64,000 nt of DNA, taken from assembly GCF_000003195.3 (NCBI RefSeq), contig NC_012871.2, positions 43,814,434 to 43,878,433 on the forward strand, read 5' to 3'. Below the pieces are notes generated by a model. That model was not told the origin of the DNA. It saw only the letters and a list, made by a program, of their open reading frames with translations, and did not search any database. The stretch is from Sorghum bicolor (Eukaryota > Streptophyta > Magnoliopsida > Poales > Poaceae). Positions 8,069-64,000 of this stretch are shown here, one piece after another; position 1 is the first letter of the stretch; the number at the start of each line of letters is the position of its first letter. The position numbers and the translations under genes are program-made.

Positions 8069-8178
8069 CCTGATAGTTCCACCTGTACTGCTTACCCTGC
8101 CATTGCCTTCAAACCTTCCGCTCTCATCTCCCCCAATCGCCTGCATCTTCCTAACTCAAGCCCACATTCGCACCTCTA

Positions 8179-17967: not shown

Positions 17968-17995
17968 CTTGTTCGCCGGAAAAGTTGCACGCACA

Positions 17996-18013
17996 CCCCT
18001 ACCTGGCGCGCCA
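17996..18013 (-). other. Tat copy 1 primer-binding site
   Basis: On the minus strand TGGCGCGCCAGGTAGGGG starts one base after the LTR end. The same sequence is present at both LTR/internal junctions of copy 2. I did not assign the tRNA with certainty. Confidence 0.8.
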
Positions 18014-18014
18014 C

Positions 18015-38623: not shown

Positions 38624-38641
38624 CCCCTACCTGGCGCGCCA
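38624..38641 (-). other. Primer-binding site next to the middle LTR of Tat copy 2
   Basis: TGGCGCGCCAGGTAGGGG on the minus strand, adjacent to the LTR at 38643. Its presence to the left of the LTR shows that this LTR is followed by a second internal region. Confidence 0.8.
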
Positions 38642-38642
38642 C

Positions 38643-39103
38643 TGTCGACGAAAGCTGGTCGGCAGTCTACCTTGGGGTATACCCACGGTAGTAGTTTATC
38701 GGTAGACGGTGCGCAAACTACGAACTCGATGGTGACGCAAGACACGGACAAGCTTTTTATCCAGGTTCGGCCGCCGAGTTGGCGTAATACCTACGTCCTG
38801 CGTCTGGTTGTATTGATTTGTGTTGAGAGAATATGATGTATCCTAGGGGGTCCCTTGCCCCTCCTTATATAGTCTGGAGGGCAGGGTTACAGATCTAGAA
38901 ACTAATCCTAGTCGGTTACAATTGCCATGGATAATTCGATATCAATTCCTATTCCAACCGACTAGAATCCTGCTTGATCTCCACATCTCGTTTCCTTGCG
39001 CGAAACTCCAGGTTGTCGGATCAAGCCTTGTACTCGTCTCGTAATGGGCCAAGCCTCCTGGCCGAAGTCTAGCCGTAAGGGTATAGGGGTTTATACCCCC
39101 ACA
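38643..39103 (-). repeat. Tat copy 2 middle LTR (3' LTR of the full unit)
   Basis: 461 bp. It shares copy-2-specific variants (CCAACCGACTAGAATCC, CTCCACATCTCG) with 50289-50749 that copy 1 lacks. Confidence 0.95.
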
Positions 39104-39656
39104 GCTAGTCCCCGAGCACCATGTATTATGATGTAACACGCCGTCTTGAGCTTCTTCGATCAGTGAGGCTTGACGTCTTCAGAAAAGTTGCCCGAACAGT
39201 TGCAACGGTATTTTGACCAACTCAAAAGACAGTTGATCAACATTGACATCGAAGAAGTGAGTTGTTCGAAGAATGCATGGTGCTCTAAATTAAAAAAGAT
39301 TTCTTTCCTGGTGAAGTGTGCCCACTTTACTTTTTTTGGAAGGTATAGACATCAAAAAAGCAAGCAAATTCACCGCAAGGTGAAGTGTGCCCACTTAGTC
39401 CCCGAGCCTGGTAGTAGGTGACGCAGGCACGTGGTGCCAGGGTCAAAACAAAAGTCCTCAAAGAAATTCTATAACTGAGATGCATCGCCAGATGCATCGT
39501 ACCGATGTAGTCCCCGAGCTTGCTGGAAGGCGAAGTATGAGCCTTGTAGCAAGGTCTAAAAAGTTGAATTTACCAGTCTGACTGCAATTGAATAGATTAA
39601 TCGACCAGTCACCAAGCACCAAGTGCTTTTTAGAATTCTGTGTTGCTGTACTGTAC
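39104..39656. other. Tat copy 2 PPT and 3' untranslated region before the tandem array
   Basis: It starts with GCTAGTCCCCGAGCAC, the complement of the PPT. The rest matches 6838-7373 of copy 1 with scattered differences. No gene. Confidence 0.6.
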
Positions 39657-40078
39657 GACCAGTCCCCGAGCATCGAGTGCTCGGTGGTCGGTGCAGTTCT
39701 TTAAAGCTTCTAGCTGATAGACTGGGCGACCAGTCCCCGAGCGTCGAGTGCTCGGTTTTCGGTGCAGTCCTTTAAAGCTTCTAGCTGATAGACTGGGCGA
39801 CCAGTCCCCGAGCGTCGAGTGCTCGGTTTTCGGTGCAGTCCTTGAAGTTCCGAGCTGATAGACTGGGCGACCAGTCCCCGAGCGTCGAATGCTCGGTGGT
39901 CGGCGCAGTCCTTGAAGTTCCGAGCTGATAGACTGGGCGACCAGTCCCCGAGCGTCGAATGCTCGGTGGTCGGCGCAGTCCTTGAAGTTCCGAGCTGATA
40001 GACTAGGCGACCAGTCCCCGAGCGTTGAATGCCCGGTGGTCGGTGCAGTCCCCGGATTGTTGACTCTCTGGCGTATGT
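39657..40078. repeat. 70 bp tandem repeat array in Tat copy 2
   Basis: Unit starts (GACCAGTCCCCGAG) lie at 39657, 39728, 39799, 39869, 39939 and 40009. Units 2 and 3 share GCTCGGTTTTCGG, absent from copy 1, so the array has been homogenised separately in this lineage. Confidence 0.9.
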
Positions 40079-40343
40079 GTCTTCTTGTTTTTTGAAAAGA
40101 TCTTTCCAGTTAAAGTTGACGTGACGAGGCCTCCTGACGGGGTGTCAGACGGATGCATGAAAAGTTGCGCCTGGCAACTGTGCAGCCGCCCTTTGCATGG
40201 TTTGAGAAAAGGAAACCATCAATTGGTACGAAAAATCCGCCGCATTAATTGTTTATAATCATTGTAAACCGAAACGCCGCATCCGCCGCATGGCCCGCCC
40301 ACTTCCCGAGAATACGGGAAGTGGGAGAGGTGGAGTTGCGGGC

Positions 40344-40350
40344 TATAAGA
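40344..40350 (+). promoter_or_regulatory. Putative TATA box of the Tat copy 2 antisense gene
   Basis: TATAAGA, 118 bp before the ATG at 40462, identical in position to copy 1. Confidence 0.55.
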
Positions 40351-40461
40351 GCCTGATAGTTCCACCTGTACTGCTTACCCTGCCATTGCCTTCAAACCTT
40401 CCGCTCTCATCTCCCCCAATCGCCTGCATCTTCCTAACTCAAGCCCACATTCGCACCTCTA

Positions 40462-43400
40462 ATGGCGAAGAGCGACTCCAGGAAGAGGGCCGAACTGATG
40501 GCCAAGGAGTGGAAGAAGTCTCGCAGCACCACGAAATCTCTTGGTGACCTCGTCGATATGGGGCTTCTGCACGGCCCGGAGCTCGGCGGCTGGAGGGCAC
40601 CGGAGGGGGAGAGCTACCCCGACCCTCGCGCCGGTGAGATCGTCGTATTTGAAGATTTCATTAAGAGGGGCTTTGGTGTTCCTATTCATCCTTTTCTTCA
40701 AGGTCTTCTTTTATACTATGAGATCGGGATTTGCAATCTGCACCCGAACTCAATTCTCCTCATTTCCACTTTTATCCACCTGTGCGAAGCCTATGTTGGC
40801 ATAGAGCCGCACTTCGATCTTTTTCGGTATCTTTTCTGCTTGAGAAAGAAGGGAGCAGTTGGAGGCTCCAAGGTTGCAGGTGGAGTATACCTCAACCTTC
40901 GTGATGGAATGAAGAATCGCTACCTGCACTGTCCATGGAACACTTCCTTGACCGAATGGTACAGGAAGTGGTTCTACATCAGGGAGGAACCGGGCAGCTC
41001 CACATTCTGCGACGTGGGATACATTCCTGAGAAGAGGATGAGCTGGACCGACCGCCCGGAGTTCGACGGTCCAGTGGCGGATCTCATGAAGCTGATCGAC
41101 TGGTCGCGCCTGGACGGGCTTGGCGTGGTCGGCAACTTCATTTGTCGTCGGGTGATGCCCTGCCAGAAGAGGGTGCACTCGGCGTACGAGTATACCGGAA
41201 GCGTGGACCCGACCAGGATGCGGCCAGAGATCTTGGAGAAAGCGGAGGTACAACAGCTGTTGAACGAGCTGTTTAACTTCGCGGACGGAGGCTTCATCCG
41301 TGGCAGTGATCGGGTGCAAGCATTCAAGTTAGGACGACCAGCACCAAAGGTATGTAGCAGATTATTTTGTTTTAGCATTCGTATACCGTCGGCAGCTGAC
41401 TCATCTCTGTTGCTTTTGCAGATCGGCGATGTCGACCGGTGCACAGTGTATGTATCACTGGCACCGGGGATGGAAAATCCTGCGGGAGAAGACCCACCAG
41501 AGGAGGACGCTGCTCGGTGTACTCATTACACCAGCAGTGAAGAGGACCAAGCCCGCCCCGTCCCGACCTCCGAGGAGAGGGTAGCGGGGAAGAGGCCATT
41601 GCCGGCAGATCCTATGCCGACACCGGAGCTGCCGGCCGATCTACCGGCGGAGAGCAGCCAAGCACCGAAGCGTCGTCGGCTCGTGCGGATCGTTGACGAC
41701 GACGACGACGACGAGGAGGCTGCGCCGTCGTTGGTCCGACGGCCCCGGGGCCGCCCAGATATTACGCCGGCTGCTACTGATCGAGTGGCCAGCGACGCCC
41801 CTGCACCGCAAGTTGTCGAGATGGGGGCGCAGGTGCCGACCGGCCGGGCGCGGAGGAGGTTCACCGCCACCCACCGTCGATCAGACCTGTAAGTGTTCGA
41901 CTTACGTATTTTGGACTCCTCTTTGATTTGATTTTTTTTTTTTTTTGAAATTACACTTTTGTTCCTGTAGTGCGGCGTCGGATGTCGACCCCGGCCAGGC
42001 TGCCAGCCAGGGGACGGGCGAGCCAGTCCACGCTGCTGAGGATACGGCCCCCCAGACCACAGAGCAGCCAACAGCTGCAGTCGCGCCTGGGAGCTCCGAG
42101 GGGCTCCCGACCGCGGCACCGACTACGACAGGCAGCCCGACCAGGGCTGGAGAGGCTCCCCCAACCGGCTCCTCAGAGGAGGGAAGATCTCCGACCGCTC
42201 CTCCTGCCGGGGGGAGTGAAGTCCCCACGCCGCCTCGAGCAGGAGCATCTTCGGCTGCGGGCTCCCCAGGTCTGGTCCGAGGACCAGTAATACCTGGGAC
42301 CACCACCGGGGGTGACGCAGCGCAGGAGGAGGAAACCCGGGCGGCCTCCGATGATGAGGTGGAAGAGGTTGAGGGTCGTCCCCGTGATGGCCGCCAACAC
42401 GTGTATGTGTGGCGCCAACGCGGGGATCACTTTATCGGGCATGAGGAGCTCGCCGAGACCGAAGAGGCCGCCAGGGTGGAGCGCGCGGCCAAACGCCTCG
42501 TCGACGAAGTCAAGGTAAGCGACTTTTTGTACTGCTGTACATTCTATGCCTTGTCTTGCATGGTCGTTATATGCTCGCTTTGTAGGGCGCAATGAAAACG
42601 GCAAAGTACCGGAAACGGTGCTTTGACCAGATAGAAGGCGTTATGGCCGAGAACAAGGCCCTTGCCGCGGAGGTAGACCGGCTGCGTTCGGAGGTCGGGG
42701 AGAAGGTGGCCGAGATGAGTGTCCAGGAGGAGCGTCGTCTCGACCTCACTCGTCGCTTGGCCGACCAGTACCGGCAGCGAGAAGGTTAGTCACACGCTCC
42801 GAGCAGCTTTGCGTACTTGTGTAGTTTGCTTTACTGACCAGTTTATGGTTCACACAGACTTGGAGGAGGAGGTGGCGCGCCTCCGACAAGAGAAGGAGCA
42901 GCTCAGCCAACAGCTCGCCGGTGCGCTGGAGTCCGGACGGCGAGCAGGAGAGGAACTGGGCCGAAAGGACCGGGAATTATCTGGTAATGGGTGCCGCCTT
43001 GTTAGCTGCTGCTTGTCGCCCCTTTGTTTGTTTGGTATGCCAAAAATAACGCCTTGTTTCGTTTGCAGTGCTCAAGGTGAACGCCAAGAAGCACCTGGAT
43101 GATCTGATCAAGGACCGGGACTCCTGGAAGGTCAACTGTTGCAGGATCTGGAAAGGAGTGTCCCCGGTCCTAGACCTGATCAGTCCCGAGCTCCCGGAGA
43201 GCCAGCCCCGCGCGCCGCAGTTGACCCCGGTCGAGAAGGCGCAACGGGCGTGGGACTGGCTCCAGCAGTTTGTGAAGGACGCTGGGGAGTTTGCCGGCGC
43301 GCACGTCCTCAGCATGGTGCGCGCCCACTACTCCCTGGTCAACTTGAGCAGGCTGGAGAAGGGGTACCCGAAGGAAGTCGGCCCTCAGGAAGCGGACGAA

Positions 43401-43643
43401 CTTCGGGGTAGTCTGCTGGACTTGTCGTCGACGGTGATCGGCGACATCAATCTGTGCGGAACGGCCACTCCTCCAGACCAGCCGAGTTCAGATAGGTCGG
43501 CCAGGGAGTTGTCGGGCACGTTCGTTGCGGGAGATGGGCGGTCGACGCCTGCGGTCTCGACCAGCCAGGCGCCGGTGGCCCCGACCCCTTCGTCCGGGCA
43601 GCAGGGCCAGGCGGGTGATCAGCCCGAGCAGCTAGGCCAATAA
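40462..43643 (+). CDS. Tat copy 2 antisense gene (Transposase_28 family), six exons, 932 aa, intact
   Basis: Exons 40462-41349, 41422-41888, 41971-42514, 42586-42784, 42858-42983 and 43069-43643, introns GT-AG of 72, 82, 71, 73 and 85 bp. The joined frame has no stop before the final TAA. Residues about 1-296 (exon 1) hold the Transposase_28-type domain. Exon 2 encodes an acidic/Pro-rich part with poly-Asp and PKRRRL. Exon 3 is low-complexity Pro/Ala/Thr followed by EEVEGRPRDGRQH. Exons 4-6 form a likely coiled coil (KYRKRCFDQIEGVMAENKAL; LEEEVARLRQEKEQLSQQL) and a conserved WKGVSPVLDL region. Intron 1 has no stop and a length divisible by three, so its retention would give a longer protein. 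The position is antisense to pol. Function unknown; a nuclear or RNA-binding role would be a guess. Confidence 0.85.
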
Positions 43644-43922
43644 AGTAGTCTGTAGGAGTAGACTAGTGTCTGCCCGTCAGGGTATTTATTGTAAACTTTG
43701 TGTGTAAAGTTTGTAATAAAGTTTGCTTTTTTTGTCATGACTGTTGTTGTGAGCGCTGTAAGAATATCTGAGTGACGTGTCACCGTATTCGTCTCGGTAG
43801 TTGCTAGGAGCATCCATTGCAGGAGTTTTGCCGAGTGCTGTGTGCGACAAGGTATAGGCAAAAAATAGAGAATTTCATTATCAAAAATTATAAGATACTT
43901 ACAAAGGAAAGTTATCAAAACT
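43644..43922. other. Convergent 3' ends in Tat copy 2
   Basis: A 279 bp spacer between the antisense gene and pol, with AATAAA near 43715 for the plus-strand transcript. It matches 11361-11638. Confidence 0.5.
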
Positions 43923-46900
43923 TTATGGATAGAAACATCGCAGTTTGTCGATGTGCCAAGAGTTAGGCACTCGTGTTCCGTCTGGGTATGCCAATCTGTA
44001 GGACGTGGGTCGTGTGACCTCGGTCACCACGAAAGGTCCTTCCCAGGGAGTGGATAGCTTGTGCATTCCCTCCTGGCTTGTTTTCCATCGAAGTACCAGA
44101 TCGCCGACCACAAAGGAACGGTCTTTGACGTTCCTGTTGTAGTATCGCCTGACTGCCGCGAGATATTTTGCTGTTCGGAGGCAAGAATCTAAACGCTTTT
44201 CCTCCATGCAATTGATTTCGAGTTCTCTGGCGTTGTCAGCGGTCGCCTGGTCGAAGTGTTCGATTCTAGGAGATCCAAAGTGTATGTCGGACGGCAGGAC
44301 CGCCTCTGCACCGTACACCATGAAGTAAGGAGACACCCCTGTGTTTCGACTGGTCTGAGTTCGGAGGCCCCAGACCACTGCCGGCAATTCTTTCATCCAT
44401 CGACCGGGTGCTCTGTCGTTTTCGGTGTACAACCTTTTCTTTAGGGCGTCAACGATCATTCCGTTAGCACGTTCAACTTGACCGTTGGCACGTGGATGTG
44501 CCACTGACACGTATTTTATGACTATGCCTCTGTCATCGCAGAAGTCCCAAAAAGTAGTGCCAGTAAACTGAGTGCCCAGATCGGTGATTATGCTGTTCGG
44601 GATGCCGAATCTGTGTATGATTTGATTGAGGAACTCCACAGCCTTCTCGGAGGTTGCCTTGACCATGGGCATGTATTCAATCCACTTGGAGAACTTGTCG
44701 ATTAACACGAAGACAAACTTGAAATTGCCCGGGGCTGGTTTAAATGGTCCGATCATGTCAAGCCCCCAGCAAGCAAAGGGCCAAGACGACGGGATGGTTT
44801 GAATTTCATGGGCAGGTACATGGGTCCTCTTAGCGAAAAACTGACATCCTTCGCAATGTCGAACCAGTTTTTCTGCGTCGCCGACCGCGGTTGGCCAATA
44901 AAAACCTGCTCGGAAAGCCTTTCCGACCAACGTTCTAGATGCGGCGTGGTTGCCGCAGGATCCAGCATGTATGTCCTCTAAGAGCTTGATACCATCATCT
45001 TGGGGTATGCACTTGAGCAGTACTTCGGAGCTTGCGTTTTTCCGCATGAGTTTTCCGTCGACCAGGATGTAGTTCTTTGATCGTCGGATGAGGCGCTCGT
45101 TCTCTGTTTTGTCCTGAAAACCTGTCCCGTCTGATATGTATTTGATGAACGGGGTACGCCAGTCACGCCCACCGGTTGTCGGAGTGGCGTCGTCTATGAG
45201 CATTGCCTCGGTGGGTTGCTTGTCGACCAGGGAGGAGCCTACGCTCGGCTCATGGATGTCCTGGACGAAAATACCCCGCGGGATTTGGGCCCGAGATGAG
45301 CCTAACTTTGACAACGCATCTGCTGCTTGGTTCTTATCCCGGACCACGTGGATGTATTCTATGCCATAGAAGTTGGTTTCCCATTTGCGAATTTCTTTGC
45401 AGTAGAGATCCATCTTCTCGTGGGTTGCGTCCCACTCCTTGTTGAGCTGGTTGATGACCAAAGCGGAGTCGCCATAGACATAGAGGCGCTTGACCCCTAG
45501 TTCAACGGCTAGTCTTATGCCATGCAAGCATGCTTCGTATTCGGCGACGTTGTTTGACGCCGGAAAAAGGATCCGAAGGACGTAACGCAGTTTGTCCTTG
45601 TTGGGTGATACGAACAGTACCCCAGCGCCGGCACCGTTGATGTTCAAGGACCCATCAAAGAACATTGACCAGTGGTCTGAGGCATCGGGAACGGGAGGCT
45701 CATTGAGATCCGTCCATTCAGCAATGAAATCGACCAGGGCCTGAGACTTGACAGTAGTTCGGCTCTGGAACTCCAGCGAAAATGGGCACAATTCCATCGC
45801 CCATTTCACGATTCTGCCATTGGCGTCTTTATTGCGCAGGATGTCCCCGAGAGGGAAACTAGTTGTCACCAGGACTCGATGGCCGTCGAAGTAGTGCTTC
45901 AGCTTTCTTGATGTTATCAGAATGGCGTATATGAGCTTCTGTATTTGTGGATATCTGGCCTTGGACTCGTTTAGGACTTCACTTATGAAGTAAACGGGTC
46001 TCTGGACCTTGTAGGCGTGACCTGGTTCATCTCGCTCGACCACTATTGCCGTGGAAACAACCCTGTCAGTTGCAGTAATGTAAAGAAGTAGGTCTTCATT
46101 GGGTTGAGGCGCTGTGAGGACAGGTGGTGAAGTGAGGAAGGTCTTAAGCTGAGTGAACGCAGCGTCGGCTTCCTCTGTCCAAGAAAATTTTTCTGATGCT
46201 TTCAATAGTTTGAAGAAAGGGAGGCCTTTTTCTCCCAGCCTTGAGATGAAACGACTGAGGGCGGCCATGCATCCGGTTAGCTTCTGAATGTCCTTGACGT
46301 TCTTCGGTGGTCGCATGTCGAGTACGGCTTTGACTTTTGAAGGGTTTGGTCGTATGCCATCGCGACTGACGACGTTGCCGAGCAGTAGACCGGAAGGAAC
46401 GCCGAAAATGCATTTCTTGGGGTTGAGCTTCCACTTGTACCTATTGAGTGCCTTGAAGGTTCGGTCTAAGTTGTCGATTAGGGTGCTCGCGTCCCTTGTT
46501 TTTACGACCACGTCGTCCACATAGGCCTCGACGAGGTCATCACGAATCTCGTCGTGGAGGCATTACTGGATGGCCCTTTGATAAGTGGCCCCGGCGTTTT
46601 TGAGTCCGAAAGACATGGTCGTGTAGCAGTATGCGCCGAAGGGTGTGATGAAGGATGTTTTGATCTGATCTTCTTCCTTTAGCGAGATCTGGTGATAACC
46701 AGAGTAGCAGTCTAGAAAGGAGAGGAGTTCGCATCCGGCCGTTGAGTCGACCACCTCGTCGATGCGAGGGAGACCAAAAGGATCTTTAGGACAGTGTTTG
46801 TTAAGATCAGTGTAATCAACGCACATTCTCCATTCATTATTCTTTTTGCGTACAAGAACCGGATTGGCGAGCCAATCGGGGTGATACACTTCTTTTATGA

Positions 46901-47108
46901 ATCCGGCTGCTAGAAGCCGTGTTATTTCTGCCCTAATAGCCTCCTTTTTGTCACGAGCGAACCGTCGCAGTTTTTGCTTGATTGGTCTTGCGGTCTTCGA
47001 GACATTTAAGGAGTGCTCGATCAGGTTTCGTGGGACACCGGGCATGTCTGCGGGTTTCCATGCGAAAACGCTCACGTTGTCCCTTAGAAACCTGACGAGC
47101 GCGTCTTC
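43923..47108 (-). pseudogene. Tat copy 2 pol, one private stop and one shared stop
   Basis: Same domain order as in copy 1: RT with [19 protein letters not shown] intact here (near 46512), two RNase H domains, and integrase with DMIGPF, DLGTQF and the final E in [13 protein letters not shown] at 46563-46565 replaces the Gln codon found in copy 1 (AIQQCLHDE), between the RT fingers and the YVDD box. Upstream, an in-frame TAG at 47109-47111 separates it from protease, as in copy 1. The downstream open part is 865 codons. The C-terminus is IDKLRCFYP. Confidence 0.9.
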
Positions 47109-50100
47109 CTATTTTGGACCCAGGTTGGCCCCGATGAGGGCTGTCTTCTCGGGGTTGCCTTCGACCAGCTGCACTTCTTTGTACTCCTTGGATTTTGAGT
47201 TCTTCCTGGCTGTCGCCTGTTCGGGTAATCGGAGCTGGTCGGGAGGTAGCTGTGCGGCTTGGTTTGCTGTTTCCGCCATGCGGATTGAGAGGTCGATTGC
47301 CTCGATGATCTTGAAGCTTTCTTCTTCGCAGGTGTACGCAGTGTAGACTTTGCCTCTGACGGTTAGGACGCCCTTCTCCGTGGGCATCTTAAGGACCAGG
47401 TATGAGTAGTGCGGGACTGCCATGAACTTTGTCAGCGATGGGCGGCCCAGTATGGCGTGATAGGTCCCGTCGAAATCTGCGACTACGAAGTTGATGAACT
47501 CCGTCCGGAAGTGGTCGGGTGTGCCGAATTGGATAGGCAATGTTATCTGTCCGAGGGGCACTGAACTTTGACCTGGCAAAACCCCCCAGAATTGGGCGTC
47601 GTAAGGTTTTAGTTGTGTCGGTGATATCTTGAGGGCGGGCAGGCTGTTGCGGAAGAGGATGTCGATGGAGCTTCCCCCGTCCACGAGCACGCGCTCGAAT
47701 CTGATGCTGTTGATGCAGGGGTCAAGAATCAGTGGGAAACGACCCGGCTCTGGGATAGCGGCCCACTGGTCCTTCCTGCTGAATGAGATCTCCCTGTGGG
47801 ACCACGTGGGAAATTTCGGATCTGCGATCAGCCCGTCCGTGCTGTCTATGTTGAGGCAGGCTCTCTTTAACAGTTTTCTTTCTCGCTTGGACTCAGTGGA
47901 GACCTTGCCCCCAAAAATGGAGTGGACCACGTCAGTGGGGCTGACGTATTGGTGTCGGGGGTCCCTATCTTGGTCCTCATCCTCATCTTCGTGGTCGTGC
48001 CCGTCGCGCTTGTTATTTTTCTTGGCGGAGTCCTCTTGGGCGGCCCGCCGTGTATAGATACTTTTGAGGACGCGGCACTCTTCCATGGTATGATTGGACT
48101 TTGGGTGTAGCTGGCATGGTCCCTTCAACGTTTTGTTGTAGTCTTCTTGGTAGTCCCGTCGCCCATTGGGACGTTTGACCGTATTTACTTCGTGGTCGTA
48201 GTCGAGAGGGCGCTTTCCTCTGAAGTCGTCGCGGCTGTCGCGCCGCCGACCCCAACCCTCTCGGTGATCACGGTTGTCGGAGCGGCGGTGATTTCTGTTG
48301 TCGTAGCGACCACGACCGTCATCTCGCTGGTCGGGGCCTCTCGCATCGTCTCGGATTAGTTTTTCTGCGTCATCGGCATCGGCGTAATTTTTGGCGGTGG
48401 CGAGGAGCTCTGCTACCGTTGATGGGCGCTTACGCAACAGCTTGTTCCTCAGCGCTTCGTGGAAACGCAAGCCCTTGATGAAGGCTGAGATGGCCTCGTC
48501 ATGAGAAATCTTCGGGATTTTGAGGCGCATATCCGAGAATCGTCGGATGTAATCGCGCAGAGGTTCATTCTTCCTGTCCCATATCCTTTCAAGGTCATAC
48601 TTGTTTCCGGGCTGCTCGCATGTGGCGATGAAGTTGTCGATGAAAGCCTGGCGTAGCTCTTCCCAAGAGTCGAAGGAGTCCTCAGGCAAGCCGAGAAGCC
48701 ACTGATGACCAGCCTGGTCGAGGACTACGGGGAAGTAGTTAGCCATGACGTGCTCATCTCCTGCCGCTGATCGGACGGCGATTTCATAGAGGGTGATCCA
48801 GTTCTCTGGATTTTCCTTGCCGTCGTATTTTTTAAGTTTTTCGAGCTTGAAATTGCGGGGCCACACGACCTGGCGGAGGTGTGAGGAGAACTGTCTTAGG
48901 CCCGGAGGACCGTGGGTTGCATCGTACTCGATGCGGCGCAGGTTTTCGTGGACTGCTCTCTCTGCGGCGCGCCTGTTGATGCGGTCCTGGGCATCTTTGG
49001 AATGGATGTTGTGGCGGAGATCCCTGTGTTGATCTTCTTCTTGGCCGCGTACGCGGTTCTGCTTGCGGCGGCCATCGGCGTCTCGACCACCATCGTCGTG
49101 CCGCGAGTCCCCTCGACGGTTATCGGGGGAGCGGCTGCGGTGACGCCTGCTGGGTGAGACCTGGCTACGATTAGTCTGGTCGGTGGCGGCTTCCGTATAA
49201 GAGACGTCCTGGACTCTCTTGAGCAGAGTGGCTGTCTGTCCCATTGCGGCGATCAGGTGTGCTCGGATGCTGGTCCGAACTCCCTGGCATTCGGGGGTGT
49301 CAGGAAGCCGATCCAGGTTAGCCATGGCGACAGCCACGTTGGCGCTTGGCGTTTTGTAGACTGGCTGGTCCCCGACCATGTCAAAGGCATCGTTGAGGTT
49401 ATTTGGTGGCATCTGTTGTTGCTCGTCCGCACGTCGTCGGGCGCGATCGGCGTTACGCTGTTCGCGGAGTTGCCTCTGGTCATATGTTTCTCCGTCAACG
49501 GCCGGTTCGTCGGCGCTAACATTGAACACAATATCCCCTCGCCGGGGGGGGAATATCGGGAATCGGTCGAAACCCGGAGGGTGTGAAGGAAAATCCAGGT
49601 CGTAGCCCTCGTCTTCGGTGTTTATAACCTCGGTGGGGACGGAGTCGGTGCTTGAGTTGGTGCTGGAAACCTGGCCGTCCCGTAGCTCTCGGATTGTCAC
49701 CATGTTGACATGGTGACGATTGTTCCTTGTCGGCGACCAACCCGCCTTGCTGAAAACGGATTGGACATGCTGTGAGTAAACAGAGGCCGAGTTGTTCAGG
49801 CCGCAAGGGTAGTCTTCCTTCTTGAGCTCGATGGATCGTCCTGAGGGGGTTGAGGTTATCGTCAGGAACGTTCCCAGCCGTTCGTGTGTGGCGACACGAG
49901 TTGGCCGGCGGGATTTCGAAAAATCCGCTCGAGCAGCTTGGTCGGGCCGGCGCAGAACTCCATCTATTAGTTGGGAGACTTCGAGTAGCTTGGAGTCAGC
50001 GCGATCGAGCGCTTGGAGGAGGTCCGAGCAGTCGATCTCCTTTCCCTTGTAGAGTGGGAACGGTGGTCGGGCGCTTGGTGCCGTCATGCGTGTGGTCGGA

Positions 50101-50240
50101 GACGGCGTGATCTCAGATTGGATCTGGATCTCTTTCGGAACCGTGGTCGCGAAGCCGCCGCTGCACGTCGTCCACGTGATCTGGCCGACGGTGAACGTGA
50201 GGCCTTCGGGCACGGTCGTAGAAGCTGGGATCGTGACCAT
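47109..50240 (-). CDS. Tat copy 2 gag-protease, open frame
   Basis: The first plausible ATG is at 50238-50240 (MVTIPAS); the frame is open from there to the TAG at 47109-47111, 1,043 codons. The domains are as in copy 1: RSRSPDNRRGDSR-type basic linker, gag core, the CHC finger CQLHPKSNHTMEEC, then protease with VLVDGGSSIDILF and ILGRPSLTKF. Relative to copy 1 it keeps six Cs near 47585, so protease is in frame, and lacks three residues (a 9 bp deletion near 48328). The TAG after NLGPK is in the same frame as RT, so read-through or a suppressed stop would be needed to make pol. Confidence 0.85.
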   Translation of the reverse strand: MVTIPASTTVPEGLTFTVGQITWTTCSGGFATTVPKEIQIQSEITPSPTTRMTAPSARPPFPLYKGKEIDCSDLLQALDRADSKLLEVSQLIDGVLRRPDQAARADFSKSRRPTRVATHERLGTFLTITSTPSGRSIELKKEDYPCGLNNSASVYSQHVQSVFSKAGWSPTRNNRHHVNMVTIRELRDGQVSSTNSSTDSVPTEVINTEDEGYDLDFPSHPPGFDRFPIFPPRRGDIVFNVSADEPAVDGETYDQRQLREQRNADRARRRADEQQQMPPNNLNDAFDMVGDQPVYKTPSANVAVAMANLDRLPDTPECQGVRTSIRAHLIAAMGQTATLLKRVQDVSYTEAATDQTNRSQVSPSRRHRSRSPDNRRGDSRHDDGGRDADGRRKQNRVRGQEEDQHRDLRHNIHSKDAQDRINRRAAERAVHENLRRIEYDATHGPPGLRQFSSHLRQVVWPRNFKLEKLKKYDGKENPENWITLYEIAVRSAAGDEHVMANYFPVVLDQAGHQWLLGLPEDSFDSWEELRQAFIDNFIATCEQPGNKYDLERIWDRKNEPLRDYIRRFSDMRLKIPKISHDEAISAFIKGLRFHEALRNKLLRKRPSTVAELLATAKNYADADDAEKLIRDDARGPDQRDDGRGRYDNRNHRRSDNRDHREGWGRRRDSRDDFRGKRPLDYDHEVNTVKRPNGRRDYQEDYNKTLKGPCQLHPKSNHTMEECRVLKSIYTRRAAQEDSAKKNNKRDGHDHEDEDEDQDRDPRHQYVSPTDVVHSIFGGKVSTESKRERKLLKRACLNIDSTDGLIADPKFPTWSHREISFSRKDQWAAIPEPGRFPLILDPCINSIRFERVLVDGGSSIDILFRNSLPALKISPTQLKPYDAQFWGVLPGQSSVPLGQITLPIQFGTPDHFRTEFINFVVADFDGTYHAILGRPSLTKFMAVPHYSYLVLKMPTEKGVLTVRGKVYTAYTCEEESFKIIEAIDLSIRMAETANQAAQLPPDQLRLPEQATARKNSKSKEYKEVQLVEGNPEKTALIGANLGPK

Positions 50241-50269
50241 CTTGTTCGCCGGAAAAGTTGCACGCACAC

Positions 50270-50287
50270 CCCCTACCTGGCGCGCCA
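50270..50287 (-). other. Tat copy 2 primer-binding site
   Basis: TGGCGCGCCAGGTAGGGG on the minus strand, one base from the LTR at 50289. Confidence 0.8.
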
Positions 50288-50288
50288 C

Positions 50289-50749
50289 TGTCGACGAAAG
50301 CTGGTCGGCAGTCTACCTTGGGGTATACCCACGGTAGTATTTTATCGGTAGACGGTGCGCAAACTACGAACTCGATGGTGACGCAAGACACGGACAAGCT
50401 TTTTATCCAGGTTCGGCCGCCGAGTTGGCGTAATACCTACGTCCTGCGTCTGGTTGTATTGATTTGTGTTGAGAGAATATGATGTCCCCTAGGGGGTCCC
50501 TTGCCCCTCCTTATATAGTCTGGAGGGCAGGGTTTCAGATCTGGAAACTAATCCTAGTCGGTTACAATTGCCATGGATAATTCGATATCAATTCCTATTC
50601 CAACCGACTAGAATCCTGCTTGATCTCCACATCTCGTTTCCTTGCGCGAAACTCCAGGTTGTCGGATCAAGCCTTGTACTCGTCTCGTAATGGGCCAAGC
50701 CTCCTGGCCGAAGTCTAGCCGTAAGGGTATAGGGGTTTATACCCCCACA
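50289..50749 (-). repeat. Tat copy 2 5' LTR
   Basis: 461 bp. It differs from 38643-39103 at about five positions (TAGTATTTTA, GATGTCCCC, GGTTTCAG, ATCTGG). E5 sequence resumes at 50750. Confidence 0.95.
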
Positions 50750-55783: not shown

Positions 55784-58700
55784 TGTAACATCCCTGATGT
55801 TACGGTTACTAAAAACGGATCATGTCATCATAAGCATTGTAAAGCATAATTGTTAAAGCACATTAGTATGCATCAACTTAAAACAAGTTTATTTTGATTG
55901 CTTGAGCTTAGGGAAGTAGAGTGTGCTTCTGTGATGTGTTGTTGCTTGTGTGGTTGCTAAAACCCTAGGGTGGAAGTTTTCCGATAGGCTAAAGGGGGAA
56001 GAACCCTGATTTCTGGATCCTAGATTTGTCCCCTTTTTCATAAGTCAAAAACTAAGCAAAATTTGAGGTTGAGTTCAAAAGCAAAGTTGTAGATCTTGGC
56101 AAGATGTACAACTTTGGTGTTTTGAGTTTTTGAAGTTTCAATACAAAATTCAAAGTAATTTTGAAAATACAGATTTCCAGAAAGTGTCCCCTTTTCCAAC
56201 TTAAATTCCCAATTCAAAATCCATTTGGAATTTTGAAAAGTGGTCAACATGAAAGTTGTAGAACACAAAAAGTTGAGCAACTTTCATGTTGGGAGTTTTT
56301 CAAGTTGTTATACAAAATCAAAAGTAATTTTGGAAATTCTGTTTTGCCCCAATTCAAAAAAATTTGGAATTTCTTTGATTTGAGTTTGATTTTCAAACTG
56401 TTTGGCCAAATTCACCCTGTTACACTCAAAATCAGCTCTGGTCACCAAAACATGATTTGTAGCTTACAAAATTTGGAACAACTTTTGTTTTGACACAAAT
56501 TTGACTCCAGTTCAAATTTCGGCTGAATTTTACAAAGTTCAGAAAAGAGGGGATAAGGGTCTGCTACAGTGACCCGATAGGGATCACTGGCTCCCTGTCC
56601 AGCGCGGCCGCCGTGCGCGCAGCACCGCGAGCGCCCGTGCGGGCACGCAGCTGCCTGCTTGCCTGCGTCGCCAGGCAACGTGGACGCCCTGGGCTCATCT
56701 CCTTCTCCCCTTTGAGCACCAGCGTGGGCGCCGCCGCGCGTTTCCTCCGTCCTGAGCCAGAGAACCCCGACGAGCTCCCTTCTTCAATTCACCATAACCA
56801 CTCCTTCCCGAGCCAAATTGAGCAACCCAGCGTCTTCGTCACCTTCGTGCGGACCCAGTGCACCCCCAAGCTCCCTCTCTAACCCCCTCAAGCGCCCGAG
56901 CTCCTCCCTCTTCTCCAACTCCGGCCGAGACCGCCGCCGCGGAGCTCTTCCCGTGGCCACGGTGTTCCAGTGAGTATCACACCCCGCTGGCGACTGTTTC
57001 AAGTTCCTTCCGTGCCCCGGTTGCTCATGCTCTCGCTCCTTCTCCTTGAATGTGAGCAGGATCGCCGGAACAAGTTTGCCGGAGCCAGAGCTCCCGCCCG
57101 ACGACACTGCTTCCGTCGCCAGCGGCTTCAGCTGCTTCTCCGAGCCTTGCAGCGTGAGCACCACCCTCCCCAACCCCTATGGAAGCTCGCTCGGCCGTCA
57201 GCTTGCACTCTATCGGGCCCTAGCGGCCGGCCGAGGGTCGGCCATGGCGGCTGCCCGCCCTTCTCGTGACCGAGGTGGAAGAAGTAGGGTAGAGCGTGGG
57301 TAAGGGGTGTCCACAGTGTCGCGGAGTTGAAGTGAAGCCGATGCGCACGCGCACTCCGGCCGAGACCCTCGCCAACGGCGGCCGGAGCCGTGGCCGAACC
57401 GCCGTGCGCGGTGAGGACGCAGCTGACGGGTGGGGTCGCCCCGTCAGCGTCCCGCAGAGAGAGGGCCTGACGAGCGGGACCCGCTCGTCAGTGACCGCTG
57501 AGAGAGAGGGGCAGCGCGCGCAGCGCGGGTGCGGGCCGAGCGCGTGTGGGCCGGCCTGCGGCCCAGTTCCCAGACAGCCCACTGCACTGTGTTTCTTTTC
57601 TTTTTCCTTTTTGATTAAAATTGATTGATGTTTGAAATTATGTGATTAATTGTGTGCTAATCCAAAAATGATGAAAGTTTTTGTATAGGTTCCATAAGGT
57701 GGGTAGAACACAAGAAAAATAGTGGATTCTGTTTTCTGGTAGTTTGCATGTCCGAAAAAAAATTTGCTCTTTTAATTAATGAATAAAACTTCTAGGAATT
57801 TTAATAATTTATTTGTATGTCCAAAAATCACCAAAAATTGTGGGGAGCCTCTGAATATTATTCCCTGGCTCCACACAAAATTTGGTGGCATTTGGATGAT
57901 GTTTGTTCAAAATATTAATAAACCCTTAGTTAACACTTAAATAATAATTCCAAAATAATTAGGTAATGATTAGTTAAATTCTCAAAATTAGGGTTTGAGT
58001 GATTTTGGGATTATGTGATGACCTGAGGTCATTGACCTTAATGACCTTTGGCATTTAATTATTGTTTGGCCTTAATGCTTAATTATTGTCATTAGAAATT
58101 AATTAAGAATTAATTAAGGTAAATAGGATTAATAATTAGTTAATTTAAGATCATTATAAATTAAGTAAAGTCTTAGTTTACAGATGCAACCTCTTGGGTA
58201 AAAGTATTAAGTTATTAAACACCTTTATTTAGTGACAATTTTGTATTGCATTAAAAAGGCAAATCGTACTTAATTCGGTCCATCTTGCATAATTGCCATA
58301 CGCTTATCATAAGCATTCATCATTTTGCGTATAGCGTCCGTGACCGAAGGAGCGCCTGTTGAACCGAACCCCGAGGTCGGTGCTCCGTTCGAGGAAGTCG
58401 GATCCGAGACTTGGGAAGTCTCCGAGGGTCCCTCTCTGCCCTGCAACCAAGGCAAGCCCCGGATGCATTAACCCCTCCTTGGATGTTTAAAATCTTTTAT
58501 CACTTATGAATTGAAAATGCTGCATTAGGTAGTTGAGAATTGGGTTAACCTACTTGCTGCATTTACTACTTTGATATCTGTATCCTGCCCTTGACACCTG
58601 TTTTATTTTAAAACTGCGTAGCGATGCTTAGCCCTGCTACTAGATAGGTTTTTAAACAAGAAAGTTTGAAGGGTTGTTGTGGGATACACTTATGATCAAT

Positions 58701-60062
58701 AATGTTTTAAGTTGAGACCGGTCGGTGGACTTGCTTTAAGAATGGAGTCTTAAAGTAGTGTCTCCAACTGTGTCGGTTAAGGACCGTTCCGTTGATGGCC
58801 TGCTGGGTTGAGAATTTATAGTACTAGCCACCTGCCTACGGTAAGCCCAGTCTTGTGATCCCTCGACGCGAACAGCTACTCGCGCACTGGGAGTGGAAAG
58901 ATGGCGAGAGTAGTGTGTACCCACCTTACGGATCTGAGATGACCGGAAAACATCTAGATCGGCTGTAGGATGGTGGAGTACTGTGCTCTCGGGTGCCGCG
59001 AACCTGGTCAAATTTGGGGAGAGCTTGATTTGGGTTGATATATGCAAGATTTGGTTCTACATATGTCGGGTGGTTAGGAACTCCAGCTGGATTGCTAAGC
59101 GATTCGAATCGTCGTTGCTCCCCGATTGGGAGACTCAATTCCTTCGACCCTCATCGTAGTTAAATATGCAAATAAGTGATATAATGAGAAAGGGGAAAAT
59201 GTCTCATGAGGTTCGGATCCCAATTCCCGGACTCATAGCGACATGAAGCTATGACCATCAATAAATAATACTTAATGATAGGACTAGGAACTCACGGATT
59301 CGTCTGTGGGGAACAACTAGTTAGACCATCCTCGAATTCTTCTGCCTCTGCGAGGGAGGAATTCAGGGTAAAACTTGAAAATAAGGATGCACTGCTAGTA
59401 AGCTTTTCCGCAAAACACTTTGGCTCCTTGCTCAGCCACCCCTTGTCTACCCTAAGCCTGCATCCCTAAATTCTCCTCTTTTCCCCGGCGGATAAGTCTT
59501 GTTGAGTACTCCCGTACTCAGGGTTTCAATACCCCTGTTGCAGGTGAAGCACAGGAGCCGACTTGTTTCGGACCCTGTTGTGTGACCGTCGTCGAGGTTG
59601 ACGACGAAGAAGAGTGAGCGTGACCCATGGGCAGGGTCTGTAATTTTGTTCTGTCTATACTAAAGTTTCAGTTGCTCCGCTGGACCAGGCTTGTAATAAC
59701 ACTCTACTATTTGGAAGAACTACTTTTGTAAATTAAGTTATGTAATACTTCCGCTGTTTCACTCTGAAATATTATTTTGGGTCTTGTGTTGTTGAGTTAC
59801 TGCTTTATCTTCGCAACGAATGATCCTGGTGATAAGGTGGCCACTTGCTATCCTGTAAGGGCGAGAAGAAACAGTTCTCGTTGTTTGACCATTATCAGTG
59901 GTCAGGACGAGCCAGCTTGGTACGCCACAGGTAGCAGTGGAATGAGCACACAGTAAGGCTCATCGGACTTCTAAAGTGGGAGGACTCCCGGCATCACCGT
60001 CAGAGGTCCTTGGGACAATGGCAGGTGTCGGTGGGCCCAAACACTTAAGGGGTTCTGCCACA
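55784..60062 (+). repeat. E7 5' LTR, 4,279 bp
   Basis: It starts TGTAACATCCCTGATG and ends GGGTTCTGCCACA, two bases before the primer-binding site. The first part is AT-rich and unlike coding sequence. A GC-rich block (56590-57560) resembles a gene 5' end, with a possible donor CCAGTGAGT near 56968 and CAG acceptor near 57060; I see no protein family in it. The remainder (57600-60062) is AT-rich, and the short ORFs within it show no family signature. Confidence 0.8.
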
Positions 60063-60064
60063 GC

Positions 60065-60076
60065 TGGTATCAGAGC
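60065..60076 (+). other. E7 primer-binding site (initiator Met tRNA type)
   Basis: TGGTATCAGAGC, the standard plant site, two bases after the LTR. Confidence 0.9.
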
Positions 60077-60436
60077 ATTCGTTGCTAAGATGACTGCTGA
60101 ACCTTTTGAAAAACTTCAAAAAAATTCGTTTGGAACTAATACTATGAATCTGCTTATTTTGAGTCCAAGTGCTTAGTCCTAACCTACCCCTGTCTATAGG
60201 CTTCCTTAGAATTTTTGAAGTGGTATGGAGGAGCAACCTATAGTATTGCCCTATGTTGTAAAAATTTAAGGTACTGTTGTTACGAATTGTTAGTAGGAAT
60301 CGTAAGTTCGTGCATGCATCATGATGTATTAACTGAATAAGTTCCTTCCTCCTTGTTGGGTTGGGTGAATAGAATCAATCCTATTCTTGCTAACCTTTAA
60401 GGTCTCTCTTACTTATCTAAACTTACCCTCTACAGG
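60077..60436 (+). other. E7 leader before the extra ORF
   Basis: 360 bp without a convincing gene. It ends in a pyrimidine-rich stretch and CTCTACAG, one base before the ATG at 60437, a good 3' splice-site consensus. Confidence 0.55.
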
Positions 60437-61141
60437 ATGGCTCGTCAGAAGCAGACCCCGCGTAAGCGGACGGGTCCAAAAGGAGTTCCCCGACATCAGC
60501 TAGCCCCACGCAGTGACCAAGCCAGTAGTAGCCGTACACCGCCTCAGCAGGAGGTGGACAGGTTGTCCGCCGAGTTGACTGAGGTGATGAGAGAGAGAAT
60601 GTACAATGTTATGGAGATTGGCAAACTTAAAGCTCAACTGGCCAAAGAAAAACAAGCTACAGAAAATTGTGAAGCTATGTTGTCCTGGATGGTGGAGGAG
60701 CGGAATGCAGCCATTGCTCGAGAGGAAGAAGCTAGGAGCACCCATAGGCATGAGCTAACTAGGATGAACGCAAAGTTGGGCAAGGCAAAGTATCTTAAGG
60801 ATTTGTATGTGAAGATGGCGGCCACGGTCACCGCACAACGGGATGTCGCGTGGCAACGAGAGGACCAGCTCCAGTTTCTCCAGCAGGAGCTGGCATCTCA
60901 CTTAGATACAGTCAATGATCTGGCTATGCAGTATCGTGATATTGCATTTGATCTGTATCATCAACTCCACCCACCTCCCGGCGAAGGAGAAATGGATACG
61001 GATGGCGAGTTGGCGGACGATGGAGAACCCGATCCAGGCCTCAGTGATGAAGAGGAGTCCGACCCCGATGACCACAACCCAGGGGGTAATCAAGATGATG
61101 GCAACGACGACCCGGGCTACAGCTCTGGCCACACCGATTAG
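60437..61141 (+). CDS. E7 extra ORF: histone-H3-tail-like N-terminus, coiled coil, acidic tail (234 aa)
   Basis: The ATG at 60437 follows a splice-acceptor-like CTACAG. The first residues MARQKQTPRKRTGPKGVP copy the histone H3 tail (ARTKQTARKSTGGK): once the initiator Met is removed, A1, R2, K4, Q5, T6, R8, K9, T11, G12 and K14 coincide, then PR and QLA follow with a one-residue shift. Residues about 40-175 are a long charged helix with heptad character (EVDRLSAELTEVM; KLKAQLAKEKQATEN). Residues about 178-234 are strongly acidic (DGELADDGEPDPG; DEEESDPDDH). The ORF lies between LTR and gag, and is in a different frame from gag. E4 holds a decayed relative. No known domain beyond the tail similarity; the function is unknown. 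Binding of, or mimicry towards, chromatin readers is an inference. Confidence 0.8.
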   Translation: MARQKQTPRKRTGPKGVPRHQLAPRSDQASSSRTPPQQEVDRLSAELTEVMRERMYNVMEIGKLKAQLAKEKQATENCEAMLSWMVEERNAAIAREEEARSTHRHELTRMNAKLGKAKYLKDLYVKMAATVTAQRDVAWQREDQLQFLQQELASHLDTVNDLAMQYRDIAFDLYHQLHPPPGEGEMDTDGELADDGEPDPGLSDEEESDPDDHNPGGNQDDGNDDPGYSSGHTD

Positions 61142-61356: not shown

Positions 61357-62171
61357 ATGCCGATGCGTACTCGCGGATCCGATGGAGCTGGGACATCCCA
61401 GGGAGGGGATGATATCCCCAACCCTCCACCTGCTCCACCTTCTTTGGCTGACGCCATTGCTGTCCTGCTAAGTGCCACAACTGACAATGCTCGCTTGCTG
61501 CGCGAGCTAGCACAGCGTCAACCACACTCTGCTCCAAACATCAGAGCACCGCGCAACGGGGATGGAGAGGCTCGGTATGTGGATTTTACCGAGACCAGGC
61601 CCCCGGTGTTCACTAAGGCCGATGAGCCTTTAGAAGCGGATGACTGGCTCCGAACTATGGAGCATAAGTTCAGTTTAATTCAGTGTTCAGAAACTCAGAA
61701 ACCCTTATTTGCAGCCCAGCAGCTTCGGGGAGCTGCAGGTGCCTGGTGGGAGAACTTCTTAGCTATTCAAGCTCCCGGACACCAAGTTACCTGGACTGAA
61801 TTTAGGGACGCGTTCCGCGCCCACTACATCCCCGAAGGGCTCATGGCCATGAAGGCCGAAGAGTTTCTCGCCTTGCAGCAAGCGACAAAAGTGTTATGGA
61901 ATACGTGGCAAGGTTTAATCATCTTTCTCAATATGCCACGGATCATGTGAACACTGACAGAAAGAGGAAAGCCTGTTTCATGCGTGGTCTAAATACTAAA
62001 CTTCAGACCATGATGACCACTTGCCAAAATGCTACTTTCTATGAGGCAGTAAATATTGCTATCGCCTCAGAGGAAAAGAATAGGAAACATAAGGAAGCCA
62101 AGAAGAAGGCTGCTTCCTCTTCTTTCTCTGGTCGCGGTCAAAAGCGCCAGAGGATCATTTATCATCCATAG
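61357..62171 (+). pseudogene. E7 gag, one frameshift and one stop
   Basis: It starts MPMRTRGSDGAGTSQGG. The gag core is clear: FTKADEPLEADDWLRTMEHKF, AAGAWWENFLA, FRDAFRAHYIPEG. Near 61887-61890 an A run is one base short for the family frame, so the match moves to the frame of 61896 (MEYVARFNHLSQYATDH, FMRGLNTKLQTMM), which ends in TAG at 62169-62171 after IIYHP. The zinc knuckle [14 protein letters not shown] (62340-62381) is downstream of that stop, in the frame of pol. Gag would form the particle; as it stands it is truncated. Confidence 0.85.
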
Positions 62172-64000
62172 GGCCACGGACGTTTCCAAACGCCGTTACC
62201 TTATCGTGGTCCTTTCTCCCCTCCACAGTACAGACCCGGGCAGCAGGTATATTCTCGACCTACTGCCATCGCTTTTGCACCACGCCAGCCGAACGCCCCG
62301 GGTGTTCGCCCTACTGCACCGCCCAGCCACAATTACCCTTGCTTCAATTGTGGTAAACCTGGGCATTTCTCTAAAGAGTGCCCTTTTCCCCGTCAAACCA
62401 ACCCTACCTTTCCAAGGCCACCTATGGGCCAACCCCAGCCGGGTCAGTTCAGAACTGGGGTTCAAAAAGGGCAACAGGTACAGAAAGGTAGACCGGTAAA
62501 GAAGACAGGGCAAGTCTTCCATACTGAAGTGGAGACAATTCCAGAGGGTGAACCAGTGATGATGGGTACGTTTCCTGTTGCGAAGCAACCTGCTTTAATG
62601 CTCTTTGATTCTGGTGCATCCCATACATTTATCAATCGCACCTTTGTGTTAAAGCATGGCATACCCATTGGGGAAACACAAGATCATTTTTATATACAGT
62701 CGCCAGGAGGACGGCTGATGTCTAAAGAAATGGTTCACCAAGTACCCATCGAATTTGGTGGGCACAATTTTCCTACTAGTATGATTGTTCTTAAGGACCA
62801 AGAAATTGATGTTATCTTAGGCATGAACTGGATGGCGCAACGAGGGGTTGTGCTAGACACTTTGCACCGAACCATTAAAATCCCATTGCCCAATGAGAGT
62901 TCTTATTTGCTAATCCAATTAGTTACTCCCAAACGGACAATTGGGCAAGTTCATGCCGCTAATGTGTCTGAAGTTAAAGATATCCCGGTAGTTCGAGATT
63001 TCCCGGATGTATTTCCTGAAGACTTACCAGGTCTGCCTCCGGACCGGGATGTACAATTCAGTATAGAATTGAAACCAGGAACGGCCCCAATATCTCGAAG
63101 GGCCTACAGAATGGCACCGAAAGAGCTGGCCGAATTAAAAACCAAATTACAAGAGTTGTTGCAGAAGGGTTTTATTCAGCCTAGTTCTTCTCCATGGGGT
63201 TGCCCAGCCTTGTTTGTGAAGAAGAAAGATCAAACATTAAGGCTGTGTGTCGACTATCGTCCTCTGAATGAGGTAACGATTAAAAATAAGTACCCATTGC
63301 CCCGCATTGACTTATTGTTTGACCAGTTAGCTGGGGCCAAAGTGTTCTCAAAAATTGATTTGAGATCAGGGTACCATCAAATCAAAATTAGGCCGGAAGA
63401 TGTGCCCAAGACTGCTTTCACAACCCGTTACGGGCTGTATGAATACTTGGTGATGTCTTTTGGGTTGACCAACGCACTGGCCCATTTTATGTACTTGATG
63501 AACTCTGTCTTTATGCCAGAACTAGACAAATTTGTGGTCGTCTTCATCGATGACATCTTGATTTACTCCAAAACTAAGAAGGAGCATGCTGAACACTTGA
63601 GAATCGTGCTGACCCGTCTCAGGGAGCATCAGCTATATGCCAAGTTCAGCAAATGTGAGTTCTGGCTGGACAAAGTTCATTTCCTGGGTCATGTATTATC
63701 AGCGGAAGGAGTCGCTGTAGACCCAGGCAAGGTAGAAGATGTGTTGAATTGGAAACCCCCGACTACGGTACATGAGGTCCGTAGTTTTCTGGGCATGGCG
63801 GGATATTACCGTCGTTTTATCCCGGACTTTTCCAGAGTCGCCAAACCAATCACAACCTTGCTCAAAAGTCAAACAAAATTTGTTTGGTCACCCCAATGTG
63901 AGCAAGCTTTTCAGGCTCTGAAAAGGTTGTTGACAACTGCACCTGTCTTAGCCCAGCCAGATATTGAAAAACCCTTTGATGTATATTGTGACGCATCAGG
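62172..64000 (+). CDS. E7 zinc knuckle, protease, RT and start of RNase H, partial
   Basis: This frame is open for 609 codons to the window edge. It encodes the CCHC knuckle [14 protein letters not shown], the protease [11 protein letters not shown] (about 62600-62632) with ILGMNWM, then RT with [46 protein letters not shown], and the catalytic FIDD (63543-63554) followed by ILIYSK. RNase H starts at the edge (VYCDASG). It is separated from gag by one TAG. Chromodomain and integrase, expected for this clade, lie beyond the window. Confidence 0.9.

Follow-up and report, generated by a model that had tools for sequence, protein, structure and literature searches.

A Tekay-type retrotransposon with an additional ORF upstream of gag

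The window, i.e., the whole stretch of 64,000 nucleotides of sorghum DNA that was analysed, ends inside an LTR retrotransposon on the plus strand. Its 5' LTR (55784..60062, TGTAACATCCCT...CCACA) is followed by a primer binding site (PBS; 60065..60076, TGGTATCAGAGC), which we take to be of the initiator-Met tRNA type, by an open frame of 234 amino acids (60437..61141), by gag (Retrotrans_gag, 61357..61950, the frame of this copy ending at 61950), and by protease and reverse transcriptase (62424..64000), which extend past the window end. The element's pol continues in L069, where RNase H, integrase and a chromodomain occupy positions 1-1888 and the 3' LTR starts at 2093. The frame of 234 residues, a sense ORF between the 5' LTR plus PBS and gag, is referred to here as ORF0, or 5' additional ORF (5' aORF). 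Aligned over 4281 bp, the LTRs show 3 mismatches and one gap (99.9% identical), and the element is flanked by the target duplication GCCTA, as read by eye off the printed ends. The insertion is very young, some tens of thousands of years old at the usual grass substitution rate of 1.3e-8.

The order of LTRs, PBS, gag, protease, reverse transcriptase, RNase H and integrase is that of LTR retrotransposons of the Tekay/Del type. Such elements normally carry an integrase chromodomain, as the first-pass annotation of this DNA had noted, and one is indeed found beyond the 3' end of the window, where Pfam Chromo matches with E 1.7e-5 and 25.0 bits, slightly less than the cut-off of 25.1. In addition, the pol end in L069 contains EEATWESE at the integrase C-terminus, which fits EEXTWEXE, the motif of the type II chromodomain (PMC3350952). 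Judged by domain order and chromodomain motif, the host element of ORF0 is a Tekay-type (Tekay/Del chromovirus) LTR retrotransposon. The element is a very common one: when the genome (709 Mb, 846 contigs) was searched for copies of ORF0, all 150 matches scored, from 1450 candidates, were full length at 94-100% identity, and 146 of them were free of stops.

The window also holds two 12-kb copies (6357-18475 and 38639-50749) that are 98.3% mutually identical and have common terminal stretches; they are probably another LTR element, present twice. Within both copies, repeat units about 70 bp apart are found (7367-7768 and 39650-40051).

The N-terminus of ORF0 resembles the histone H3 tail

The ORF0 protein starts MARQKQTPRKRTGPKGVPRHQLAPRSDQ (also given as MARQKQTPRKRTGPKGVPRHQLAPR). 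Codons 1-25 (60437..60511) correspond to H3 residues 1-23 plus one inserted Val. It had been claimed from the sequence that, after removal of Met, 10 of residues 1-14 are identical to H3, and that PR and QLA of H3 follow with an offset caused by a one-residue insertion. Both statements hold, and our analyses confirm that the observation is real and was understated. For example, a phmmer search with the first 40 residues against 177,635 PDB sequences gave a best E of 0.019, and the best 60 of its 115 matches (E<=10) were H3 or H3 chimaeras only. When residues 2-31 were shuffled 20,000 times, the observed score was never reached, although narrowly (observed 63, best shuffle 62), and the anchored identities to H3 were 9/12, compared with at most 7 in 300,000 draws.

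The remainder of the protein is not histone-like. AlphaFold2, run on alignment A4, predicts a single long helix or coiled coil over residues 36-177 (60542..60967; pLDDT mostly >90), and this is followed by a disordered acidic C-terminal end (60968..61138; recognised by sequence, pLDDT ~45), which bears out the coiled coil and acidic tail proposed for the rest of ORF0. ORF0 therefore shares with H3 the N-terminal tail, whereas the histone fold expected downstream is replaced by the predicted helix, and neither is a double-stranded RNA-binding domain (dsRBD) fold found in the window's ORF0. No histone families are among the listed Pfam matches of ORF0 proteins; all of these matches are below curated cut-offs, and they are mostly to coiled-coil families. 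In 11 of 14 representative ORF0 proteins (described below), the similarity of the region after residue 30 to the H3 core falls within shuffles at the 5% level, the exceptions being P0057, P0150 and P0113 (reached by 12, 7 and 14 of 300 shuffles, respectively). A relic of an H3 gene that retains its core is thus not supported.

Conservation of ORF0 across families peaks in the tail

At least 161 relatives of ORF0 were listed from three protein searches, one of which contributed 120 of 166 relatives. By a loose score, a tail is present in 80 of the 161, e.g., MARTKQTARKKTGPKGVPRHQLAPRT (P0107), MARTKQTARKMTGPKGVPRHQLAPRD (P0098), MAKTKKTARKSTGPHGVPRHQLAPRN (P0048) and MARTKRTARKSAGGRAPRHRLAPRE (P0148). 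Of the remaining 81, 78 begin only past the start of the tail, the tail of P0119 is a variant one, and P0104 and P0121 have other starts. Counting only the 83 relatives that cover the N-terminal region, 81 have the tail. A profile built from 13 ORF0 tails, whose proteins were gathered through full-length ORF0 searches and not through H3, reaches E 6e-7 for H3 in a PDB search, and the best 60 of its 144 matches are H3 entries, including one labelled Cse4. ORF0 relatives in viral contigs were looked for as well, and none was found among 41 pattern matches.

For deep comparisons, the 64 sequences with a length of 135 amino acids or more were clustered greedily at 60% identity, computed outside the tail, which gave 14 representatives. 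The 80 tails behind these representatives were chosen by the loose tail score, which biases the comparison, and this bias was checked with tail-less queries (see below) and by sorting the relatives without a scored tail. Among the 14, mean identity is 69% in the tail and 34% elsewhere, tail identity exceeds that of the rest in all 91 pairs, and the majority frequency is 0.79 in the tail versus 0.54 in the best 26-column window elsewhere. The tail is therefore the most conserved part of ORF0 in deep comparisons. In shuffle tests, the scores of 10 representatives were never reached by 20,000 shuffles, while those of P0113, P0057, P0043 and P0044 were reached by 1, 3, 9 and 39 shuffles, respectively.

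Position by position, residues identical to H3 are found in the following numbers of the 14 representatives: A1 in 13, R2 in 10, T3 in 10, K4 in 11 (replaced by Arg in 2 and His in 1), Q5 in 5, T6 in 14, A7 in 7 (Pro in 6, Gln in 1), R8 in 11, K9 in 14, S10 in 6, T11 in 13, G12 in 13, G13 in 3 (Pro in 11), K14 in 7, A15 in 2, P16 in 14, R17 in 12, K18 in none (His in 14), Q19 in 12, L20 in 14, A21 in 13, T22 in none (Pro in 11) and K23 in 1 (Arg in 13). The Val insertion is present in 11. Hence K9, T6, P16, L20 and the change of K18 to His are invariant. The replacement of S10 and T3 in the window's copy had been taken to mean that phospho-marks would be lost while K4 and K9 remain; the loss is not general, as 6 of the representatives retain S10 and 10 retain T3.

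Queries lacking the tail recover copies that have it

The part of P0010 downstream of the tail was used as a first tail-less query (1495 candidates, 150 of 150 scored matches), and 20 of the 150 stretches were picked for their spread of identity (71-100%), with their tails unseen beforehand. All 20 of these diverged copies have the tail, with K9 altered in two of them (Glu in L077, which also contains stops, and Gln in L087). The corresponding part of P0042 served as a second query (150 scored of 1837 candidates) and led to a second large family, F4, which is 54-60% identical to the query. An H3-like start, e.g., MARTRLTARKSTGGRAPRHPLAAR, is present in 27 of the 30 best F4 copies of the 150 scored. 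F4 tails retain K9 and S10, while K4, K14 and K23 are mostly Arg. A whole F4 protein of 347 amino acids matches H3 in the PDB at E 1.8e-4 with an ungapped alignment, the best 60 of its 130 matches all being H3. The F4 copy in L070, which came from an H3 query and was excluded from the count of 27/30, reads MARTRLTARKSTGGRAPRHQLATR, and 19 of 24 residues, Met included, are identical to H3 without a gap.

In P0133, a relative of F4-type ORF0 (e.g., L009:892-1932) that represents a sister type of the window's ORF0, residues 38-123 are predicted to form a dsRBD-like fold between the H3 tail and the coiled coil. The predicted order of elements, alpha-beta-beta-beta-alpha, is that of a dsRBD, with middling scores, and no dsRBD family is among the 11 Pfam rows (E<=1) of L009.

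Selection on ORF0

It was suggested earlier that dN/dS and the conservation of the tail relative to the rest of the ORF be compared among related elements, and the reading was to be dropped if relatives failed to conserve the tail. They do conserve it, which supports the earlier interpretation in part. Among 11 stop-free copies of the window's clade (one of which, L078, has no ATG at its start), dN/dS is 0.10 in the tail and 0.12 in the rest at a dS of ~0.87, and values of about 0.1 indicate purifying selection. In 9 copies with stops, dN/dS is 0.12 in the tail and 0.11 in the rest, and pN/pS in the window's clade is 0.15 [0.07-0.29] in the tail and 0.18 [0.15-0.22] in the rest. Thus tail conservation is evident in the deep comparisons, but within the window's clade it is not clearly above that of the rest, from which we infer that the whole ORF0 protein is selected and that the tail is distinct only over longer times. 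Nonsynonymous change is absent in this clade at the codons for K4, Q5, T6, K9, K14, His18, L20 and A21, and R2, R8 and R17 mutate mainly to His, Cys or Gln, the pattern expected of CpG decay. Because lysine codons contain no CpG, lysine would outlast arginine in methylated copies by mutation alone.

Origin of the tail and possible splicing of the leader

In three sorghum H3.3-type genes (L068, L059 and L062), an exon ends after ...QLATK at a GT, and the H3-like part of ORF0 stops at the same residue. In L059, CAG lies directly 5' of the ATG of this exon; in L062, an acceptor-like CAG lies 21 nt 5' of the start, and in L068 no acceptor-like site is present in the 60 nt upstream that were examined. 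The acceptor is therefore right at the ATG in only one of the three genes with that exon. The sequence 5' of the ORF0 ATG is CTCTACAGG in the window and (C/T)AGG in 20/20 relatives, and it is GCAGCAG/GTAGCAG in F4.

A donor-like GTAAGT is found 132-135 nt upstream of the ORF0 start in both families. In the window, it delimits a putative leader intron (60302..60435, plus strand), proposed from sequence features only, whose acceptor CTCTACAG adjoins the ORF0 start codon. The donor lies within a 25-bp leader block (60299..60323, plus strand, ATCGTAAGTTCGTGCATGCATCATG) that is common with F4 leaders, being identical in L009 and L017 and one base off in L070, and is thus shared by families strongly diverged in ORF0 outside the tail. 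The block is donor-like, and perhaps it is another RNA signal too. Four ATGs lie between the PBS and the donor at 60302, which counts against a splicing model with ORF0 as the first frame. Further, an acceptor-like CAG is located directly 5' of the gag ATG in the window (61357), L009 and L017, so that alternative splicing from the donor at 60302 could give rise to both ORF0 and gag-pol messages.

The matching exon end, the upstream acceptor and the leader donor together point to capture of one H3.3-type exon with its acceptor, and this is the likely origin of the ORF0 tail. The exon-end argument is suggestive only, and 'SSRQKS' in F4 could be a remnant of 'AARKS' of the next H3 exon. The DNA itself had been described as resembling plant H3 genes; this likeness is weak, with 57-62% identity to five H3 genes and no significant excess of codon matches over expectation (P 0.05 to 0.68 in 20 comparisons), and codons therefore do not prove exon capture. 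Such a test would have little power if synonymous sites became saturated after an old capture. CENH3 was considered as an alternative source, and a CENH3-like start in L060 (MARTKHQAVRKLPQK) is less similar, as judged by eye. Two sorghum H3-like genes or pseudogenes, L066 (chromosome C2) and L067 (chromosome C1), have altered tails (MARTKCWARRSTGGKTPRKQLVRT and MARTKSTARNSTGGKAPRKQLVKK), in which K9 is replaced by Arg or Asn.

A possible mimic of the H3K9 tail

Taken together, we hypothesize that ORF0 is a conserved H3K9-tail mimic that is written or read by the host K9 machinery, with a decoy of K9me2 readers as the favoured form, and we give this reading about even odds (roughly 0.5). That K9 is retained in nearly all relatives examined points to possible interference of the element with the plant's silencing of jumping genes. 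In this model, the disordered, H3 1-23-like N-terminus would be displayed on the long helix with its acidic end, and K9 in this tail would be methylated by H3K9 methyltransferases of the host, whose H3K9me2 readers would bind the methylated tail. ORF0 oligomers showing many tails could thereby titrate the silencing machinery away or misdirect it. The predicted dsRBD-like domain between tail and coil of the sister type would fit interference with RNA silencing too.

Which reader might be affected can be considered from known reader contacts. In ZMET2/CMT3, H3 residues 1-10 are held in the BAH domain and residues 14-23 run along an allosteric loop; K18 is needed for activation, and R17, L20 and T22 also make contacts (PMC9256654). 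The fixed His18 of ORF0 would remove the activating K18 contact, and CMT3/ZMET2 is therefore a good candidate target, to which the K9-methylated tail could bind without activating it. Further candidate readers are SHH1 and AGDP1, which recognise K4me0 together with K9me2 (PMC6208443); AGDP1 also uses R2, R8 and A7, the last in a hydrophobic pocket (PMC6208443). The fixed ORF0 residues appear to fit K9 reading, although two features fit less well: the contact residue T22 is absent in 14/14 representatives, which argues against CMT3/ZMET2, and the frequent change of A7 (Pro in 6, Gln in 1 of 14) argues against AGDP1. It could also be that His18 is a founder change without function. In its most specific form, the hypothesis would state that in grass Tekay elements a captured H3.3 exon became a dominant-negative H3K9 tail, with K9 kept, His18 binding CMT3/ZMET2 without activating it, display on a coiled coil, and a dsRBD-like domain in the sister type, and that it suppresses DNA methylation linked to H3K9me2 and perhaps RNA-directed DNA methylation as well; this version is speculative, with the odds well against it.

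The main rival would be a tether rather than a decoy, in which the tail, K9-methylated or unmodified, docks ORF0 and the integration complex on heterochromatin readers or on the element's own type II chromodomain and so steers insertion. The element does carry a Tekay-type chromodomain with EEATWESE, and in published work type II chromodomains are still without an identified partner (PMC6317226; PMC3350952). Moreover, in sunflower, 5' aORFs were described in the Tekay group that shows no pericentromeric bias of insertion and in neither of the two groups that show it (PMC11728184). However, of the three cage residues, type II chromodomains are missing the first and, in most cases, the last (PMC6317226), so that contact of the ORF0 tail with the element's own chromodomain, which the first-pass annotation had considered, is less likely as a methyl-lysine contact. 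Overall, we regard steering of insertion as conceivable but improbable.

It is also possible, if rather unlikely, that a captured H3.3 exon was kept for its start codon, its splice acceptor, and a basic, disordered tail that serves as a nuclear signal or binds nucleic acids, its likeness to H3 being unused. This would agree with the coinciding exon ends, the basic nature of the tail and the nuclear location predicted for published grass 5' aORFs (PMC11728184). Yet the residue order and the non-basic T6, T11, G12, P16, L20 and A21 are retained across families that are 34% identical elsewhere, which is more than a mere nuclear signal would need.

Alternatively, a basic N-terminus might have gained its H3 likeness by convergence under selection for mimicry, like the short viral histone mimics, rather than by capture. 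The unremarkable codon matches described above would be expected in this case, and so would the lack of H3 core likeness after residue 30 in 11/14 representatives, but the codon test is weak for the reason of saturation already given, and the ungapped match of L070 over 19/24 residues and the coincidence of the H3-like part with exon ends make convergence unlikely. Finally, an accidental likeness to H3 in a short basic peptide, to which the window's ORF alone (E 0.019, best shuffle within one point) and the four representatives whose scores were reached by 1 to 39 of 20,000 shuffles might point, is hardly credible and is contradicted by the family profile of 13 tails (E 6e-7), drawn from searches independent of H3, and by the single F4 protein (E 1.8e-4).

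Comparison with known systems

Like the ORF0 family of the window, the ORF0 or 5' aORF of Retrosat2, RIRE3, RIRE8, ZMsat2, Sorsat2 and Brasat2 is a sense ORF between the 5' LTR and gag of grass elements with long LTRs, and its overall divergence is fast (Gao 2012, PMC3485330). These ORFs are described there as divergent and without clear function, with the ORF0 of Retrosat2 and Sorsat2 ~10% similar (PMC3485330). The window ORF0 matches them by position, and is otherwise likened to them through description, not sequence. In sunflower, the 5' aORF of Tekay group 2 occupies the same position and has disordered regions, and its authors see a likeness to plant DRBM proteins, which recalls the dsRBD-like fold of P0133; it differs in its length of ~400 amino acids and, according to these authors, has no amino-acid similarity to grass 5' aORFs (PMC11728184). 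The word 'histone' is absent from the main texts of both papers (PMC3485330; PMC11728184). An H3-like tail in a retrotransposon ORF is unreported in the literature found on aORFs, ORF0 and histone mimicry, a body that leaves most subscription journals outside its coverage.

ORF0-type 5' aORFs are found in abundant grass elements and lack a settled function in that literature. If their tail is a conserved mimic of H3K9, it would allow a direct test, at the level of peptides, of how these elements meet the plant loop of H3K9me2 and DNA methylation. Within the same element, the type II (Tekay) integrase chromodomain is a chromatin module and a candidate reader, with ORF0 as the would-be read tail, so that the tail is a candidate partner for this chromodomain.

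With respect to histone mimics, EZHIP has been called an 'oncohistone mimic' with an H3-like peptide (PMC12713659). The modifiable lysine expected at a comparable place in such a mimic is present in ORF0 (K9 in 14/14 and K4 in 11/14 representatives). Influenza NS1 is another histone mimic, i.e., a non-histone protein that engages chromatin proteins through a peptide resembling H3. The mimics in NS1 and EZHIP are short motifs away from the true N-terminus, whereas that of ORF0 spans ~23 residues at the N-terminus, belongs to a plant retrotransposon and comes probably from an H3.3 exon. With plant H3.3-type genes, ORF0 has the first 23 residues and the exon end in common, and it is unlike them in having no histone fold and, among the 14 representatives, His for K18 in 14, Arg for K23 in 13 and an inserted Val in 11. 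The tail may be an instance in which a retrotransposon captured a histone exon.
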